Origin: a virus | Virus record (IMG/VR): IMGVR_UViG_3300022693_000337 | Span: 1-20,075 of that record | Direction: 5' to 3' (one strand) | DNA length: 20,075 nucleotides | Part shown: piece after piece, positions 2,924 to 19,831 of the stretch | Layout: the number at the start of each line of letters is the position of its first letter | Numbering within the stretch: position 1 is the stretch's first letter | Translations under genes and position numbers: made by a program | Notes under the pieces: model-generated | Told to the model about the DNA's origin: nothing | What the model saw: the letters and a program-made list of their open reading frames with translations, nothing else | The model's database searches: none

Positions 2924-3058
2924 CTATTGTAAAACAATTTCTTCTTTGTAATAAATCCCAGCGCTGTCTAGTTGCTTGCGTAAGATGTCGGCAGATTCTT
3001 GGTTATAGCGTTTTAGAGCGTATGTCAGCATACCTGATTTTACGACGAATTGATACAT
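2924..3058 (-). CDS. Small hypothetical protein, 44 aa
   Basis: Frame from ATG at 3058 to TAG at 2924; the ATG lies one nucleotide after the stop of gene 3060-3329, with GAGAGG about 11 nt upstream inside that gene. The product begins MYQFVVKSGMLTYALKRYNQ and ends YYKEEIVLQ; one amphipathic helix (about residues 9-33) is flanked by short strands. Spacing and direction suggest translational coupling to 3060-3329. Function is unknown. Confidence 0.7.
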   Translation of the reverse strand: MYQFVVKSGMLTYALKRYNQESADILRKQLDSAGIYYKEEIVLQ

Positions 3059-3059
3059 T

Positions 3060-3329
3060 TTATTTTATACCTCTCAATGCTGCCTTTGGGATGCACACCA
3101 GGACTCTTTTTAATTCAGGTGCGTATTGTGGTGACGCTGTTTTAAATTCTGCATCTGGTATGCTTTCAACTATTTTTGCACGCTGTTCAGAAGTTACCGA
3201 GTCGCATTTATAAAAATCGTATAGCTTGCGTTTTGTTTTTGAGCATTTCAGCACGCCATATTCGTGATAACTGATGCCCAAGTTATATAGAAAACTACCT
3301 ACCATTGTATTAGTAACCTTAGCTTTCAT
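3060..3329 (-). CDS. Hypothetical protein, 89 aa
   Basis: ATG at 3329 is preceded by AGGTGA at good SD distance. The product is basic (MKAKVTNTMV at the N terminus, CSKTKRKLYDFYKCD at about residues 29-43), with several Cys but no clear zinc-binding arrangement. It forms a pair with 2924-3058. The 81-nt gap upstream (3330-3410) holds a possible TATTAA -10 (3353-3358), but I found no matching -35. Confidence 0.75.
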   Translation of the reverse strand: MKAKVTNTMVGSFLYNLGISYHEYGVLKCSKTKRKLYDFYKCDSVTSEQRAKIVESIPDAEFKTASPQYAPELKRVLVCIPKAALRGIK

Positions 3330-3410
3330 AAGTCACCTATTAAGTCGTTGGTTTAATACTGCAAAGCGCCCTATGCGCCGTTGCTATGTAAGACATTTTA
3401 GACGTCTGTT

Positions 3411-3536
3411 CTATACAATGCAAAGAATATCACGACCGTTTGCAATCCGCTTTGCGTATTCTAGCGCTTCGTGCTCTCTATTACAACGATACTCGATAGC
3501 GGGGCCGGAAGAAAATAAGATAGTAAAAATATACAT
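3411..3536 (-). CDS. Very small hypothetical protein, 41 aa
   Basis: The open frame extends upstream to a TTG at 3614, but that region contains a good promoter. The internal ATG at 3536 has AGGAG 8 nt upstream and is preferred. The product begins MYIFTILFSSGPAIEYRCNR and ends IANGRDILCIV. The N terminus (residues 1-10) is hydrophobic but too short for a confident membrane helix. Its position 30 nt after a predicted start site supports an independent transcript. Confidence 0.6.
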   Translation of the reverse strand: MYIFTILFSSGPAIEYRCNREHEALEYAKRIANGRDILCIV

Positions 3537-3572
3537 TGTTAGCGCTCCTGAATTCCGTTGGGTACAAGGCGA

Positions 3573-3601
3573 AATATAGACACACCTCGCCACCGCGTCA
3601 A
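3573..3601 (-). promoter_or_regulatory. Sigma70-like promoter
   Basis: On the minus strand TTGACG (3601-3596) is followed after 17 nt by TATATT (3578-3573); each hexamer matches consensus at five of six positions. It shares GTTGACGCGGTG with the promoter at 714-741. It lies just after the stop of 3611-3784 and about 30 nt before the 41-aa gene. Confidence 0.75.
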
Positions 3602-3610
3602 CAATCTTTT

Positions 3611-3784
3611 TCAAATTAATTCACAAATCCCTTCCATCCATTTTTGCATAAATAGCAACGCGCACGCGCTTAGCATACCTGCAAAGCACTTGGCGATAAT
3701 ACCAAGGTATGAATCCGGATTGCATCCTGGGCAAAGCCCGACCTTTTTCAACAAATCCCAACACAAATCGACAGCAACCAACAC
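3611..3784 (-). CDS. Possible small protein with one membrane segment, 57 aa
   Basis: Only non-ATG starts are available in the N-terminal part: GTG at 3784 avoids overlap with the upstream 51-aa frame, while a GTG at 3823 would overlap it by 28 nt. Neither has a strong SD. The product contains one likely membrane helix (about YLGIIAKCFAGMLSACALLF) and four Cys. It fills the gap between 3796-3951 and the promoter at 3573-3601, which supports it being real, but the start is uncertain and the frame could be fortuitous. Confidence 0.42.
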   Translation of the reverse strand: MLVAVDLCWDLLKKVGLCPGCNPDSYLGIIAKCFAGMLSACALLFMQKWMEGICELI

Positions 3785-3795
3785 TTTAAAGCGCT

Positions 3796-3951
3796 TTACA
3801 TGCCTACCGTTGAAGCTGCGCACCCTTTCCCAAATTTTTCAGCAACTTTCAAATCTAAATCGTCGAAGCTGCCTATCGAAACCCTTGCTGCAAACTTCTC
3901 ACCGTTGAAATTGATATATCTTTTCCTAAATTTAACTTTACACCCACGCAT
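3796..3951 (-). CDS. Small basic hypothetical protein, 51 aa
   Basis: Frame from ATG at 3951 to TAA at 3796. The product begins MRGCKVKFRKRYINFNGEKF and ends GCAASTVGM; its N-terminal half is strongly basic. There is no clean SD: the ATG lies 6 nt after the terminator-like stem at 3957-3981, whose GCGGG arm is the only purine-rich tract nearby. The amino-acid composition looks coding, but expression from this start is uncertain. Confidence 0.5.
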   Translation of the reverse strand: MRGCKVKFRKRYINFNGEKFAARVSIGSFDDLDLKVAEKFGKGCAASTVGM

Positions 3952-11577: not shown

Positions 11578-11604
11578 ACTTACACCAATAGAAGGATGAT
11601 GACA

Positions 11605-12336
11605 ATGCCTAAACGTAATAAGCAAAAAGTCGTTCAACAGCGTTGGGAGAATAAAATGGAAAAGGGTAAACAGGTTAAAGAGCAATATATTAAGCCTCCT
11701 GTTCAAGCACGTAATGAGAACCAGAAGCAATTTTTAAAACACCTTAACACCAAAGATGTTGTAATTTTCAATGCTGTTGCAGGCGTTGGTAAGACCTTCT
11801 TAACAATGTCAGAAGTTACCGATTGGTTGAAGAAAGGTATTTATGACAAGCTGGTTATCGCTCGCCCAAACATCTTAATGGGTAATTCTATAGGTTTATT
11901 AAAGGGAAGCGCTATTGAAAAATGTGAGCCGCTGATGATGCCTATGATCGACGTTATTAAGCAGCGCTATGGAGCAGGGTTTTACGAATCCAGTCTTCAC
12001 AATGGTACTATTGAATTACAACCTCTTGAGTATATCCGAGGGCGTAATTTCAATTATATTACAGTTCTTGATGAAGCACAGTTGACAACACCTGAAGAGA
12101 TGTACACGATATTGACACGTCTTGCTGATGGTGGTAAATTGATTATTCTTGGTGATCCTACGCAGAAAGATCAGAAGGGTCTCGATGGGATTACTTGGTT
12201 ATTAGACTTTGTAAATCGCCACAATCTTCAACATATTGTCGGGTATACTGAAGCAGGTAGTGATGATATTGAGAGGGGTGGGGTTTGTAAGGCTGTTGTT
12301 AAGGCGATGGAAAAAGACCGTGCTGAGGGGGTTTGA
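11605..12336 (+). CDS. phoH: PhoH-like ATPase
   Basis: This 243-aa protein has the PhoH P-loop fold: Walker A AVAGVGKT at residues 57-64, Walker B YITVLDEAQ at 151-159 and the LIILGDPTQ motif at 179-187, as in the helicase-like domain of PhoH and RNA helicase superfamily 1. Of three clustered ATGs, the one at 11605 is best spaced from AGAAGG (11590-11595). PhoH-like genes are frequent in marine phages, where their exact role (phosphate stress or RNA metabolism) is unsettled. The C-terminal codons contain the SD of the primase-helicase gene, and the two overlap by one base (TGATG), so they are coupled. Confidence 0.93.
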   Translation: MPKRNKQKVVQQRWENKMEKGKQVKEQYIKPPVQARNENQKQFLKHLNTKDVVIFNAVAGVGKTFLTMSEVTDWLKKGIYDKLVIARPNILMGNSIGLLKGSAIEKCEPLMMPMIDVIKQRYGAGFYESSLHNGTIELQPLEYIRGRNFNYITVLDEAQLTTPEEMYTILTRLADGGKLIILGDPTQKDQKGLDGITWLLDFVNRHNLQHIVGYTEAGSDDIERGGVCKAVVKAMEKDRAEGV

Positions 12337-14087
12337 TGGAGAGTCTTTCACAAGGTTCGTTTATGTATCACGAAGAATGTGAAGAATGTGGTTCGCGTGA
12401 TGCTAAGGGTATCTACAAAAACGTAATAGAAGATGGCGAAGAAGTGTTCACAGGGTATTGTTTTTCTTGTGAACATTGGTTTCCACCGTCTTCATTTGAC
12501 CAAGAGTACAAACCTTCTGTAAAAACTGAACGAGGTGATAAAAAAGTGGATCAAAGTGCAAAGGTGCAAGAGATTCTTAAAGACTACGAAAGCCGTGGGG
12601 TTCGTGATCGTCGTATTAAGAAAGAATTTGCAGAGATGTACGGAATGAAAGTTGGGTATAACGGCGAAGGTGAAATCACTGAACATTACTACCCAATTAC
12701 TGTAGATAATAACGTTACAGGGTATAAGGTTCGTGAACTGCCAAAAACCTTTCGTGTGGTGGGGGATGCTAAGAAGTGTCAGCTATTCGGTCAACATTTA
12801 TTCTCACAGGGAGGTGCATACGCAAACAGAATTAACAAGAAGTTTGTAATACTTACTGAGTCAGAACTTGACACGATTGCTATGCAGCAAGCAATGAATG
12901 AAAACGGTAATTCAGACTTTATTAATGCCGTGGTAGGTCTTCCTAACGGTGCTAATGTAAAAGCTGTAAAAGAAAACTACGCATTCTTAATGCAGTTTGA
13001 ATCAGTAATTATCTGCCTTGACCAAGATGATCCTGGATTAAAATGTGCCAAAGAGATTGCCAAGATATTACCAATGGGTAAAGGTAAAATTGCGCATTTT
13101 TCTGAGAAAGACCCTGCGGATATGGTTAAGAAGGGGAAAGGCGCAGAGCTTGCAAAGGTAATATGGACAGCTACACCTTTCACACCGCAAGGGATTGTAT
13201 CAGGAGAAGGTCTTTGGGAGACAGTACGCAAACCACTAGAAGAGTCTGCTATTGATTATCCTTGGGAGGGTCTTAATAAGAAGGTTCACGGTATTCGTCC
13301 TTCAGAGCTTGTAACACTTGTCAGTGGTTCTGGTATGGGCAAAAGTGAATTTGCAAGAGCTATTATGTACCACATTCTAAAAACGACCGATGAAAATGTT
13401 GGAGCTATGTTTTTAGAAGAGTCTACACGTAAGACAGGATTGGCGTTAATGAGCTTTGAAGCTAAGAAGCTCTTACACCTTCCACACGTTGAACGTAATG
13501 AAGAAGAAATGAAGAAGGCTTTTGATGAGACACTAGGCACAGGCCGAGTATTCCTTTTCGATAGCTTTGGCAGTAATGATATTGATACAATTTGCGAGAA
13601 CATCTCTTATTTTGCTAAGGTGGCAGATTGTAAATATATCTTCTTAGACCATATTTCCATCCTAGTAAGTGGTGGTGGGTATGGTGATGAACGTAAAGCT
13701 CTTGATGAGATTGCTACTAAACTTCGTACACTTGTTCAAGAGCTTGGTATTAGCTTGTTTATGATTAGTCACTTGAAGCGTGTCGAGGGTGGTGGTCACG
13801 AACAAGGATCACAGACAGCACTCAGCCATATCCGTGGCTCAGGCGGTCCTGCACAACTTTCAGATATTGTTATTGGATTAGAGCGGAATGGACAAGCTGA
13901 AGATGACAAGGAGCGTAACACGACAACGTTGCGAGTGCTGAAGAACCGTTTTAGTGGTGATCTTGGAGTTGCTGCGAAGGTGCATTTTAATAATATCACA
14001 GGCGAGCTTACCGAAGTCTTCGACGAAGATCATCAGGACGTAAGTCAAGAGTACGAGGATGAGTTCGCAGCCTTAGAGGCGTATTGA
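12336..14087 (+). CDS. T7 gp4-like DNA primase-helicase
   Basis: The 583-aa protein combines primase and replicative helicase in the T7 order. A zinc-binding domain has C15-x2-C18 and C42-x2-C45. The TOPRIM core has E175 (VILTESELD) and D229/D231 (CLDQDDPG). The RecA-like helicase has Walker A GSGMGKS at 331-337, Walker B KYIFLDH ending at D438, a His in MISHLKR (H489) and a likely arginine finger at R538. The length is close to T7 gp4 (566 aa). It would unwind DNA and make primers at the fork. The C terminus is acidic and ends in Tyr (EYEDEFAALEAY), like the acidic-Phe tail of T7 gp4 that contacts the polymerase. Start ATG at 12336 follows GAGGGGG. Confidence 0.95.
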   Translation: MESLSQGSFMYHEECEECGSRDAKGIYKNVIEDGEEVFTGYCFSCEHWFPPSSFDQEYKPSVKTERGDKKVDQSAKVQEILKDYESRGVRDRRIKKEFAEMYGMKVGYNGEGEITEHYYPITVDNNVTGYKVRELPKTFRVVGDAKKCQLFGQHLFSQGGAYANRINKKFVILTESELDTIAMQQAMNENGNSDFINAVVGLPNGANVKAVKENYAFLMQFESVIICLDQDDPGLKCAKEIAKILPMGKGKIAHFSEKDPADMVKKGKGAELAKVIWTATPFTPQGIVSGEGLWETVRKPLEESAIDYPWEGLNKKVHGIRPSELVTLVSGSGMGKSEFARAIMYHILKTTDENVGAMFLEESTRKTGLALMSFEAKKLLHLPHVERNEEEMKKAFDETLGTGRVFLFDSFGSNDIDTICENISYFAKVADCKYIFLDHISILVSGGGYGDERKALDEIATKLRTLVQELGISLFMISHLKRVEGGGHEQGSQTALSHIRGSGGPAQLSDIVIGLERNGQAEDDKERNTTTLRVLKNRFSGDLGVAAKVHFNNITGELTEVFDEDHQDVSQEYEDEFAALEAY

Positions 14088-14148: not shown

Positions 14149-16116
14149 ATGAAAACTGTTATTGCGGATATTGAAGCAAACGGACTACTAGATACCATTT
14201 CAAAAGTATGGGTTATCGCTTGCGTAGACGAAGATGGAAGTAACCAGAAGGTATTTACTGATGAAGACTGCCAAGGAATTGTAGAGCCTGCTGGAAATCT
14301 TGAGGATGGGGTTAAGCACCTAACAAGCTATGACCGTGTGGTTATGCACAATTTGATGGGGTATGATTACCACGTATTACAGAAGTTCTTCCCTAAGTTG
14401 TGGAACAATAGGACAGCACCATTTAAAAAAATGTGGGATACGCTTGCACAGTCTAAGGCGCAGCATTTTGACAGACCGAGGCTGAAAGGTGTTAAGGGTA
14501 ATCATGGCTTAGAGTATTACGGGCTGTTATTCAAGTATCCCAAACCACCTATTGAAGATTGGACGTATTGGGACGCTGAAAAACTTAACCGTGTTCTTGT
14601 GGACATTGAGATTAACCGTAAGACCTACCACTTTTTGAACAAAGAGGCTGCTCAGACAGGTCTGGACTTTTCTAAGCAAATACGTCGAACTCAAGTCTCA
14701 CAGTATTGGTATGCACTGCAAGAGCTTTACGGGTGGATGGGAGATCGTGCTTACTTAGAAAGTTGTGTTGAAGACCTTGACAAGCAGATTGCAGACCTTG
14801 CCTCTGAAATCGAACCACGGTTACCTAAGCAGGTAAAACCCAAGGCTGTAAAATGTACATGGGAAGATATACGTGATAAGTGGGAGGGGTTCTTTAGGAA
14901 AGTCCCGAAGCCTAAAGTAGATATGGAAACAGGGAAGGTTATCAAAAATGCCTATATGCCGACTACAAAGGTGTTTTTAAAGTCTGGTAAGTATGATAAG
15001 CACACTGCTTCGCATTTTGGTATTGACCAAGACCCTAAGAAGTCTAACTATTTGGTTCGTGGCGCTTACACTAAGATTGAAGTGTTCGAGTCTAAAATGT
15101 CTCAGCACGCCATTGTAAAAGACTACTTGCTGAGTATTGGATGGGAGCCCACCCAATTTAACTACCAAAAAGATAAGGATGGTAAGCTGTTGAGAGATGC
15201 CGCCAATAATCTCATCAAGAAGTCGCCAAAGCTGACTGAAGACTCCTTTGAAAGTATTACGGGTGATCTTGGTGAGAAAATTGCTCTCTACAATACGCTA
15301 ATGCACAGACGTAGGACTATGAAGAATGAGAAAGATGATAGCAAGGGTTGGTTAAACCAACTACGTAAGAGTGATGACCGGATACCCGCTGGCGCAATGT
15401 CGTGGGCAACTTCAACAGGTCGAGCAGCCCAAAGGGGTATCGTAAATGTGCCGAGCGTGTCAGCAGTGTATGGATACCCTATGCGAAGGACTTGGATATG
15501 CCCTGATGACAAAGTGCTAGTCTCTGTAGATATGGACTCTGCACAACTACGGTTACTAGCTAATTACATGGGCGATGAAGACTTTACCCAGGCTGTTATG
15601 GAAGGTACAGAGTTTGATAGTGAGCATAACTACGTAGGTACAGATGCCCACACATTCAACAGTCGATTCTTTGGGTTGATTGATGACGATGATTGGAAGC
15701 GTGCTATTGAAACGCAAGACAAAGAGTTGATTCAAAAGGTTTCTAATGCTCGTAAGAAAGGAAAAAACGCTATCTACGCCTTGTTATTTGGGGCTGGTGA
15801 CGCCAAATTTGCTAACACTGTAGGGTATAAAACTGCTGCACAAGGCAAAGCTGTCAAGGAAAACTATTACCAAAGGCTTCCAAAAGTCAAAGCCCTCATT
15901 GATAGACTAGAAAACCAATGGAAACAAAACAGTTTCCGTAAAGGTGGTTATATAGAAGTTGCTGGCGACACATGGGTATGGTGTCCTAGTTCCCATAAAC
16001 TTCTCAACTACTTGCTGATGGGTTCGGAGGCAGCTTTACAGAATGAAGCTATCTGCTGGATTAATGCAGAGGTAAGAAAGAGAGGATTGAGCGGGAAACA
16101 ACTTGCAGCGATCCAT
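14149..16116 (+). CDS. Family A DNA polymerase, exon 1 (T7 gp5-like)
   Basis: Exon 1 encodes 656 residues; AGGAG precedes the ATG. The 3'-5' exonuclease domain shows ExoI D7/E9 (IADIEANG), ExoII around D73 (HNLMGYDYHVL) and likely ExoIII D152. Polymerase motif A is D461-MDSA-Q466-L-R468 and motif B is R535-x3-K539-x3-Y543-x3-F547-G. Exon 1 ends after His656 of motif C; the reading frame then runs into the intron and stops at 16122, which would give an enzyme without the motif C Asp. Family A polymerases usually have Glu where this one has Gln466. Joined to 16385-16537, the product is 706 aa (T7 gp5: 704). It is the replicative polymerase. Confidence 0.95.
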
Positions 16117-16384
16117 AAATAATTGTGGCCTTGTGTGGTAACACACATTGAATAACTCCTTTAATTGCTGGAAGGCTAACGGTCTAGTCAACCCATGCTA
16201 ATCAGCAGCCAAGGCTTGGGAGAAATCCCTTGCAAGGTTCAGAGACTAATTGTAGGTTGGAAGCGGTTGCCAATCGAAACGGGGAGCATCCTTCTAGGAT
16301 GGTGATATAGTCCGATCTTGCGGGAAACCGTAAGCAGCACATAATGGTGCGGGTTCACAAGTAGCGTTGTGGATTGAACTGTTG
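16117..16384 (+). ncRNA. Group I self-splicing intron in the DNA polymerase gene
   Basis: The 268-nt element follows an exon T (16116) and ends in G (16384), as group I introns do. P1 can form between exon CCAU and intron GUGG with the required U-G at the splice site. P2 is TGTGTG/CACACA with a GTAA loop (16132-16147). P3 pairs CTCCTT (16156-16161) with GGGGAG (16281-16286). P6a has a GAAA loop (16218-16229). P7 pairs GACTA (16244-16248) with TAGTC (16308-16312), in the typical GTTCAGAGACTA and GATATAGTCC contexts. P8 is 16287-16301 and P9 is capped by GAAA (16318-16333). The extra hairpin between P7 and P3 fits subgroup IA. It carries no ORF. Confidence 0.94.
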
Positions 16385-16537
16385 GATGAATTGACTTTTG
16401 AGTTTGATCTAAACGAGGAAGGGTTGGGGATTGACCTAATGAGCGAAATGTATGAGGCTGCTTCAAAACGAATGGGTTTGGAAATCCTTGTTACAGGGTC
16501 GGCTCAGTCAGGTAGAAATTGGGCAGAAATCCATTAA
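16385..16537 (+). CDS. Family A DNA polymerase, exon 2
   Basis: Exon 2 encodes 50 residues from DELTFEFDLNEEG to SAQSGRNWAEIH and stop TAA. Its first two codons complete motif C (H|DE), the second catalytic carboxylate of family A polymerases, and its end matches the GRNWAICH terminus of T7 gp5 closely. It has no start signal of its own, which supports splicing to 14149-16116 rather than independent expression. Confidence 0.93.
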   Translation, partial: DELTFEFDLNEEGLGIDLMSEMYEAASKRMGLEILVTGSAQSGRNWAEIH

Positions 16538-16548
16538 TAGGAGGAAAT

Positions 16549-17088
16549 ATGGAAGAACTTTGGCATGATGTTAAAGATGAGAAGATGTACGGGTATGTAG
16601 AAGTATCAAACTTAGGGAGGGCTAGATACAAAGACACTGGTGAAATTTGTAGACTGGCTGACAATGGTAATGGATATTTGGCAGTTTACTGTAGAATTGA
16701 TAAGAAAACTGTGTTACGTTATATACATAGGCTTGTTGGACAGGTGTTCCACGATAATCCTGATAATCTCCCGCAAGTCGGTCACAGGGATGATGACAAG
16801 TCTAATAATCACCCTGACAATCTTTACTGGTGTTCAGGGTCAAGGAATATCCGTGATGCTCATAAATCAGGACGTATGAAGAAGCGGTCTGAATTAGGTT
16901 CTATCTCAAGATATGATGATAAAGTTGTTGCAAGCGCTTATAGAGATGTAGTAGTATTTGGAGAAGGAATTACAAAGACCGCTACAAAACATGACATGCC
17001 AAGGACAACGTTGAGCAGTATTATTAACAAACGTGCGAGGTCTAACATCACAGATAAAATTGATGAAGAAATTGTAGAAGTGGCTTGA
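16549..17088 (+). CDS. Free-standing HNH homing endonuclease (NUMOD4-HNH)
   Basis: The ATG at 16549, 4 nt after AGGAGG, is chosen over a TTG at 16519 inside the polymerase exon. The 179-aa protein starts with a NUMOD4-type motif (LWHDVKDEKMYGYVEVSNLG, residues 4-23). The HNH core follows: RYIHRLVGQVF (H60), then VGHRDDDKSNNHPDNLYW (H79, N86/N87, N91). Residues about 120-165 look like a helix-turn-helix used to read the target (ITKTATKHDMPRTTLSSIIN). Such enzymes nick or cut intron-free alleles. It lies 11 nt after the polymerase stop, outside the intron, so it may promote spread of the ORF-less intron. Confidence 0.93.
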   Translation: MEELWHDVKDEKMYGYVEVSNLGRARYKDTGEICRLADNGNGYLAVYCRIDKKTVLRYIHRLVGQVFHDNPDNLPQVGHRDDDKSNNHPDNLYWCSGSRNIRDAHKSGRMKKRSELGSISRYDDKVVASAYRDVVVFGEGITKTATKHDMPRTTLSSIINKRARSNITDKIDEEIVEVA

Positions 17089-18851: not shown

Positions 18852-18887
18852 AAGGGCAGCTTTGACAGGTTGCCCTTTTTATTTCTT
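18852..18887 (+). terminator. Rho-independent terminator after the SSB gene
   Basis: AAGGGCA (18852-18858) pairs with TGCCCTT (18871-18877) around a 12-nt loop, and the stem runs into TTTATTT. It is a standard plus-strand terminator 22 nt after the SSB stop. No good promoter lies between it and the exonuclease gene, so read-through must supply downstream genes, or expression comes from elsewhere. Confidence 0.85.
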
Positions 18888-18901
18888 TGGGAGATGTGGG
18901 T

Positions 18902-19831
18902 ATGGCAATAATTGCTAAAGAAGATGTTCCTGAGAAGTTTGATGTATGTTTTATCGGTGATTTAATAAAGTATCGTAGTAGCTTTGCAGCAGAGAAAACT
19001 TATTGGCATTTGTACGACGCTGAAGGAAACCATATTGACCGTTTTGATTCTGCTAAGGCTGCTAAAGATCACTTACAAGAATTAGAAGAGTTCTTGATGG
19101 TTGACACAGCAGGGTATTACAAAGAACCTGAGAAAGTAGTCGGGGAACGTGGACAGGCATTGAACGCATGTGACCTTATTATCGAACACATCAAAAAGAA
19201 CTGTCCTGCTGATGAGTATAAGTTGTACTTAACAGGTAATGACACTTACAGGCTATCAATCTCAACTATCCATAAGTACAAAGGCAGCAGAGAGAAGATG
19301 GAAAAACCTCGTTGGATTGACGCCGTTACCGAACACTTGATGCAAACACATGGTGCAAAACCTGTAGATTATATTGAGTGCGATGATGTTTTATCGGTAG
19401 GTCTTTGGAGTTGTTATCGAAAAGGTTTGGAGGCGGTTGCGGCCAATTTAGATAAAGATGTTTATCAGGCACCTCTTCACCATTACGATTGGGTTAAAGA
19501 TCAATTCCGATATATCACACCGGAAGAGGGTTTAGAGTGGCTCTTCATCCAAACACTCGCTGGCGATATGAGTGTGGATAATTATGAAGGTGTCCCTGGG
19601 ATTGGGAAGGTGAAAGCTAAAAAGATTCTTGAAGGATGTACTACAGAGCGGCAAATGTATGATAAATCTGTAGAAGCTTATCGTAATTACTTTGGTGACG
19701 AGTACACCTACACAACATGGGATGGGAAAGAAGTTACCAAGACTGCTGAAGAAATCATGTTAGAGAATCTTCGCTTAGCATATATGTGGAGGAAGAAGGG
19801 AGAAGAATACCAAATTCCAAAGGAGGAATAG
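18902..19831 (+). CDS. 5'-3' exonuclease (T7 gp6/FEN-like)
   Basis: ATG at 18902 follows GGGAG; an upstream TTG at 18887 would lie in the terminator U tract. The 309-aa protein has the FEN-type metal sites: D20 in CFIGD, E159/D161/D162 in YIECDD, D184/D186 in LDKDVYQ, and G221-D222/D226 in LAGDMSVDNYEG. A helix-hairpin-helix-like VPGIGKVKAKKI spans residues 231-242. These match T7 gp6 and the 5' nuclease domain of DNA polymerase I. It would degrade host DNA and remove RNA primers during replication. Its stop is 3 nt before the resolvase ATG. Confidence 0.92.
   Translation: MAIIAKEDVPEKFDVCFIGDLIKYRSSFAAEKTYWHLYDAEGNHIDRFDSAKAAKDHLQELEEFLMVDTAGYYKEPEKVVGERGQALNACDLIIEHIKKNCPADEYKLYLTGNDTYRLSISTIHKYKGSREKMEKPRWIDAVTEHLMQTHGAKPVDYIECDDVLSVGLWSCYRKGLEAVAANLDKDVYQAPLHHYDWVKDQFRYITPEEGLEWLFIQTLAGDMSVDNYEGVPGIGKVKAKKILEGCTTERQMYDKSVEAYRNYFGDEYTYTTWDGKEVTKTAEEIMLENLRLAYMWRKKGEEYQIPKEE

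Follow-up and report, generated by a model that had tools for sequence, protein, structure and literature searches.

Collaborative homing of an intron has been reported for the psbA intron of S-PM2, which is served by the free-standing endonuclease F-CphI (Zeng 2009, as recounted in PMC6083498 and PMC3984707). In PMC3984707 the arrangement is regarded as a stage on the way to endonucleases encoded by introns. PMC10448857 describes the origin of such arrangements as unclear and suggests endonuclease turnover. Introns of the DNA polymerase gene are known at site 881 (E. coli numbering) in PhiI and W31, with the HNH gene inside the intron (PMC3428280). A further relevant case is gene 5.3 of T3, a free-standing HNH gene which starts about 10 nt after the polymerase gene.

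The locus described here lies within a viral sequence of 20,075 nt (IMG/VR record IMGVR_UViG_3300022693_000337), the whole of which is referred to as the window. As in S-PM2, an ORF-less group I intron interrupts a conserved gene and a separate endonuclease gene adjoins it. The genes differ, being psbA and the EndoVII-type F-CphI in S-PM2 but a DNA polymerase gene and an I-HmuI-like HNH gene in the window, where cutting at motif C is a putative activity. The intron site is shared with the T7-like phages PhiI and W31. There the HNH endonuclease, I-TslI, is encoded within the intron (PMC3428280, PMC10448857), whereas in the window it is encoded outside an ORF-less intron. The polymerase gene of T3 is intronless, unlike that of the window.

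Neither the mechanism (S-PM2 psbA/F-CphI) nor the site of insertion (PhiI and W31, site 881) is new. What is added, with partial support, is an unannotated, recurrent and partner-swapping version of the collaborative arrangement in a DNA polymerase gene. No description of an ORF-less intron with an adjacent HNH gene in polymerase motif C was found in the literature searched, subscription papers being outside the search.

The split polymerase gene and its motif C intron

The polymerase gene is carried on the plus strand in two exons. Exon 1 (14149..16116) has 656 codons, of which the last encodes the His of motif C, and matches PF00476 (E 6.9e-16) and phrog_17 (E 1e-90). Exon 2 (16385..16537) begins with the Asp-Glu of motif C and contains 50 codons followed by the stop codon TAA (16535-16537). 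The sequence reads ATC CAT at the 3′ end of exon 1 and GAT GAA from 16385. On translation, the spliced exons give a single family A polymerase of 706 aa, in which AAIH is joined to DELTFEF. Its C-terminal end, NWAEIH, is typical of phage family A polymerases. If the gene is read unspliced, the polymerase frame ends one codon after the motif C His. This joint is that of site 881, which falls between His881 and Asp882. Upstream of the polymerase, the window encodes a PhoH-like ATPase and a Toprim-DnaB primase-helicase (11596-12336 and 12333-14087), and a weak match to a 5′-3′ exonuclease at 18887-19831 completes the replication module.

The initial annotation had placed an ORF-less group I intron with core pairings exactly between the His and Asp codons of motif C, and had suggested a search with the Rfam group I model and a comparison of relatives with and without the intron. 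Each of these points was borne out, and every coordinate was confirmed. Among polymerases from viral contigs, motif C is uninterrupted at precisely the window's joint in L094, L095, L096, L097 and L099. The L100 polymerase is also continuous at this joint, though another group I intron lies elsewhere in the gene. These six relatives without the motif C intron are 62-80% identical to the window over exon 1. In L100 the intron (L100:5297-5683) separates residues 431 and 432 in the numbering of the window, which makes this a second site for group I introns.

The intron occupies 268 nt (16117..16384, plus strand) and its last base is G16384. In an Rfam scan, positions 16106-16334 match RF00028 with 77.4 bits (E 1.9e-18), above the gathering score of 50, and this is the sole Rfam family matched in the whole window. 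No plus-strand ORF of at least 60 aa was found inside 16117-16384. The assignment is further supported by the precise absence of the intron in relatives and by covariation with eight further introns at the same site.

The RNA core was compared with those of another twelve introns inserted at this joint, and covariation was counted on an alignment of nine introns. In this alignment a double compensatory change is found at 39 of the 58 consensus pairs. In P1 the exon half CCAU (16113..16116) is matched by the internal guide sequence GUGG (16125-16128), with U.G at the 5′ splice site. P1, consisting of four pairs between the last four exon bases and the guide, is present in all 13 introns, either as CCAU/GUGG or, where the exon differs, as GCAU/GUGC. 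The 5′ strand of P3, CUCCUU (16156..16161), pairs with GGGGAG (16281-16286), with double changes at four of its six pairs. P7 is formed by GACUA (16244..16248) and UAGUC (16308-16312). It was missed by the RNAalifold fold, being a pseudoknot, and was checked by hand; it is paired in 9/9 introns, with the compensatory variants GAUCA/UGAUC and GGUCA/UGACC. Compensatory changes are also seen in P8. P10 has three pairs in the window intron and three to five pairs in 11 of the 13 introns.

The His codon of motif C is CAT in all 11 occupied alleles tested. Alleles with neither the intron nor the HNH gene have CAT in 23 of 65 cases and CAC in the other 42 (Fisher p 5e-5 against the occupied alleles). 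The U.G rule at the splice site requires CAT in occupied alleles, and the splicing chemistry apparently fixes the active-site His codon.

From these features, the intron is predicted to self-splice and to be removed from the mRNA in vivo. That the insertion is instead non-splicing, an assembly artefact or a decayed gene, leaving a broken polymerase, is hardly credible in view of the complete conserved core with its compensatory changes, the precise joint relative to intronless polymerases and the downstream exon, which is intact in at least 12 phages. In the related phage CB7, splicing of polymerase introns has been demonstrated by RT-PCR (PMC7344957).

The adjoining HNH gene and its distribution

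The endonuclease gene (16549..17088, plus strand) encodes 179 aa. Its ATG at 16549 lies 11 nt after the polymerase stop and is preceded by a Shine-Dalgarno-like AGGAGG (16539..16544). The location outside the intron and the HNH motifs, both reported in the initial annotation, were confirmed from the ORF and from profile matches. The protein has a NUMOD4-like N-terminus, an HNH core and a C-terminal helix-turn-helix-like block, RTTLSSIINKR. Matches to Pfam HNH_3 and NUMOD4 fall slightly under the cut-offs, and residues 1-170 match phrog_59 (PHROG 59) with 137 bits (E 1.7e-39). The family profile also matches I-HmuI (1u3e) with E 2.5e-18 over residues 5-161. By profile, I-HmuI and I-BasI belong to the same family as the window HNH, but they are intron-encoded at another polymerase site whereas the window HNH is free-standing. 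His79, in the core, and the Asn positions are kept. The residue before the catalytic His is Gly in the window HNH, as in M1, L014, L017 and L019, compared with Asp in I-HmuI and Asn in most relatives. Orthology with T3 gp5.3 was considered and rejected, the best BLASTP E being 0.10 and the profile match only 11 bits.

At least ten other phage lineages combine an ORF-less motif C intron with a phrog_59-type HNH gene that lies 11-67 nt downstream of the polymerase stop: Pseudoalteromonas phage HM1 (L010), L015, L016, L105, L106, L107, L142, L145, L170 and L188. L104 is an additional, truncated example. Pairwise identity among the polymerases that carry the pair is mostly 17-58%, with 76% between HM1 and L142. 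The HM1 genome (KF302034) resembles the window in having an ORF-less motif C intron and an HNH gene directly after the polymerase stop, both unannotated; its polymerase is about 32% and its HNH about 40% identical to those of the window.

Other endonucleases are also found with the motif C intron. The neighbour is an HNH gene of another family (phrog_953) in K412 and L141, a GIY-YIG gene in L174 and a CapR-domain endonuclease gene in qdvp001. SSE121, phiTE and Aeromonas 2L372D have an HNH gene inside the motif C intron, that of SSE121 being a 34% relative of the window HNH. The occurrence of these insertions across very distant phages shows that the joint between the active-site His and Asp of the polymerase is an insertion hotspot.

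Further insertions were observed in the same polymerase genes and in others. The genes of phiTE (L002) and SSE121 (L003) each contain two introns with their own HNH genes, the second being at the motif C site. Intein-like insertions (L015:1545-2525 and L188:2344-3264) are present alongside the motif C intron and adjacent HNH gene. In the Felix O1-like polymerases L135-L138, a different conserved position (profile position 158; about 3046-3849) is interrupted by a group I intron, and some of these insertions exceed 750 nt.

The association of intron and endonuclease was assessed in loci L111-L235, which had been retrieved by polymerase sequence and not by HNH. Dereplication at 90% identity and the requirement for at least 300 nt downstream left 78 loci, of which 10 carry an intron in motif C. 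Directly after the polymerase, a phrog_59-type HNH gene is found in 7/10 intron alleles and 3/68 others (Fisher p 5e-6, kinship ignored), or 4/7 against 3/68 when the query loci are left out (Fisher p 9e-4, kinship ignored). HNH genes of this type are enriched beside the motif C intron. An endonuclease gene of any kind is next to the polymerase in 8/10 intron alleles (5/7 without the queries) and in about 18/68 of the remainder, a comparison for which p is 0.025 without the queries, kinship being ignored. No endonuclease gene was found next door in L194 and L213, which have the motif C intron. The enzymes encoded directly after polymerases without this intron comprise HNH of phrog_59, 953 and 99, GIY-YIG and EndoVII. 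These counts identify the 3′ flank of the polymerase gene as a general hotspot for endonuclease genes.

The phrog_59-type HNH gene is not confined to intron-bearing polymerases. It follows intronless family A polymerases in L014, VH-8, M1, AM24, D'Alembert, L122, L144 and L169. It also lies directly after apparent family B polymerases in L017, L019, L109 and L110, assigned to that family by eye from DxxSLYP- and DTD-like motifs (no Pfam match was obtained for L017); no group I intron was found by Rfam in these four loci. In L014, an HNH gene (L014:3492-3764) whose product is 85% identical to the window HNH lies 10 nt downstream of a T7-type family A polymerase gene that has no intron. The two polymerases have no BLAST similarity, and DNA similarity to the window starts at the HNH gene itself. 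This indicates that the HNH gene has moved from one lineage of phages to another.

Such observations invite the explanation that the HNH enzyme is an ordinary agent of intronless homing which targets the 3′ end of the polymerase gene, the intron being a passenger in the copied tract that is neither targeted nor protective. Several endonuclease families occupy this flank in the absence of a motif C intron, and the HNH gene itself follows intronless polymerases of both families. The HNH gene starts only about 165 nt from motif C, so any cut at the 3′ end of the polymerase gene would co-convert the intron site. The significant enrichment of phrog_59-type genes beside motif C introns is set against this explanation, as is the homologue within the motif C intron of SSE121. 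Moreover, a fixed short target could not serve family A and family B polymerases unless the HNH lineages differ in specificity. On balance this passenger role for the intron is unlikely, though it deserves consideration.

Histories of the intron and the endonuclease

A natural comparison of alleles is provided by L107, with both intron and HNH gene, and L157, with neither. Over exon 1 they are 85.3% identical (3276 nt). Positions 3620 and 3884 of L107, on either side of the intron, join exactly to positions 3280 and 3281 of L157. L157 cleanly lacks the HNH-bearing block that separates the polymerase stop from the next gene in L107. The two insertions are 276 nt apart and are present or absent together between close relatives, as co-transfer of the intron and HNH gene predicts.

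A footprint of co-conversion was also sought in exon 2. Exon 2 of L107 and L157 is 78.6% identical compared with 85.3% for exon 1, but 9% of segments of the same size in exon 1 are equally low and the candidate was set aside. The comparison of the window with L094, its nearest relative, likewise has its lowest identity in exon 2 (60% against 67-79% elsewhere). This footprint was also set aside, because L094 has its own GIY-YIG gene and identity between L094 and L100 also drops, so the converted side cannot be told. The GIY-YIG genes of L094 (L094:4725-5522) and L099 (L099:6115-6825) lie directly after the polymerase stop, where the window has its HNH gene, in alleles without a motif C intron.

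On a longer scale, the identity matrices of polymerase, intron and HNH (11 pairs) are uncorrelated, with Mantel values of 0.016, -0.017 and 0.002 and intron identities near the noise floor. The absence of correlation indicates that the pair has not travelled as one fixed unit. HM1, L142 and L141 have the same intron lineage and similar polymerases but three different endonucleases next door. The HNH proteins of HM1 and L142 are 34% identical, and the neighbour in L141 belongs to phrog_953. This trio is a direct example of endonuclease turnover beside a stable intron. The partnership of intron and HNH looks loose and exchangeable, since the HNH gene occurs without the intron, the distances are uncorrelated and one intron lineage is found with three endonucleases.

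It may be asked whether turnover alone accounts for the locus, the intron having lost its own endonuclease gene and now being largely vertical in descent, with a free-standing gene settled nearby by chance. This idea, proposed in PMC10448857, draws on the existence of motif C introns with internal HNH genes (SSE121, phiTE and Aeromonas 2L372D) and on the HM1-like group, which keeps its intron and polymerase beside changing neighbours. Chance settlement is difficult to reconcile with the same HNH family beside an ORF-less intron in at least ten lineages and with the joint gain or loss in L107 and L157. The uncorrelated polymerase and intron distances, a comparison of low power, are contrary to simple vertical descent. 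Turnover as the whole explanation is consequently rated as decidedly improbable.

In phages with the HNH gene and no intron, the motif C flanks show more differences to the occupied consensus (p 0.048, one-sided; kinship ignored). Resistant target sites in these phages were dropped as a proposal, the difference being too weak.

Proposed collaborative homing with exchangeable partners

The locus consists of an intron without its own endonuclease gene and a free-standing endonuclease gene adjoining the intron-bearing gene, which is the anatomy of collaborative homing. The initial annotation had proposed this mechanism, with the adjacent HNH enzyme as the cutter. The proposal was upheld in part: it is favoured by the anatomy, the recurrence, the association and the L107/L157 alleles, while the HNH genes beside intronless polymerases, the non-congruent histories, the intron alleles L194 and L213 with no neighbouring endonuclease and the Gly in place of the Asp of I-HmuI count against it. 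Collaborative homing in which the HNH partners are replaceable over time is the best explanation of these data, with a probability of roughly 0.64. The homologous HNH inside the motif C intron of SSE121 fits this reading, as does the inclusion in the family of I-HmuI, which serves a polymerase intron as its homing endonuclease. The partnership may also be a looser one, or a case of simple hitch-hiking.

Under collaborative homing, the intron would self-splice out of the mRNA at motif C, and the HNH enzyme from the downstream gene would nick or cut polymerase genes that lack the intron, at motif C or close to it. A window-type allele would then serve as the template for repair, which would copy the intron, exon 2 and the HNH gene together, a tract of about 1 kb. 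The presence of the intron would stop recutting of the occupied allele, and the HNH partner may be swapped over time. The cutting site, the co-transfer and the protection by the intron are predicted here from sequence comparison.

A broader proposal, offered tentatively, is that ORF-less motif C introns may be a passenger shared among endonucleases of several families, which serve it interchangeably. The intron could be moved by any enzyme encoded in the 3′ flank whose cut falls close to the invariant codons of the active site, and the partners would be reshuffled repeatedly. Collaborative homing might then be a stable lifestyle rather than a brief step to an intron-encoded enzyme.

According to the literature (PMC10448857), it is not clear by what route collaborative homing originates or for how long it persists, and the present set of loci makes the question directly testable. 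At a single invariant codon pair, the locus and its relatives offer alleles that are occupied, half-occupied or empty. Among them are a near-matched pair of empty and occupied alleles and an intron lineage found beside three different endonucleases. That the intron-HNH pair recurs in about ten phages unrelated to one another points to a role of the cutter in spreading the intron RNA.
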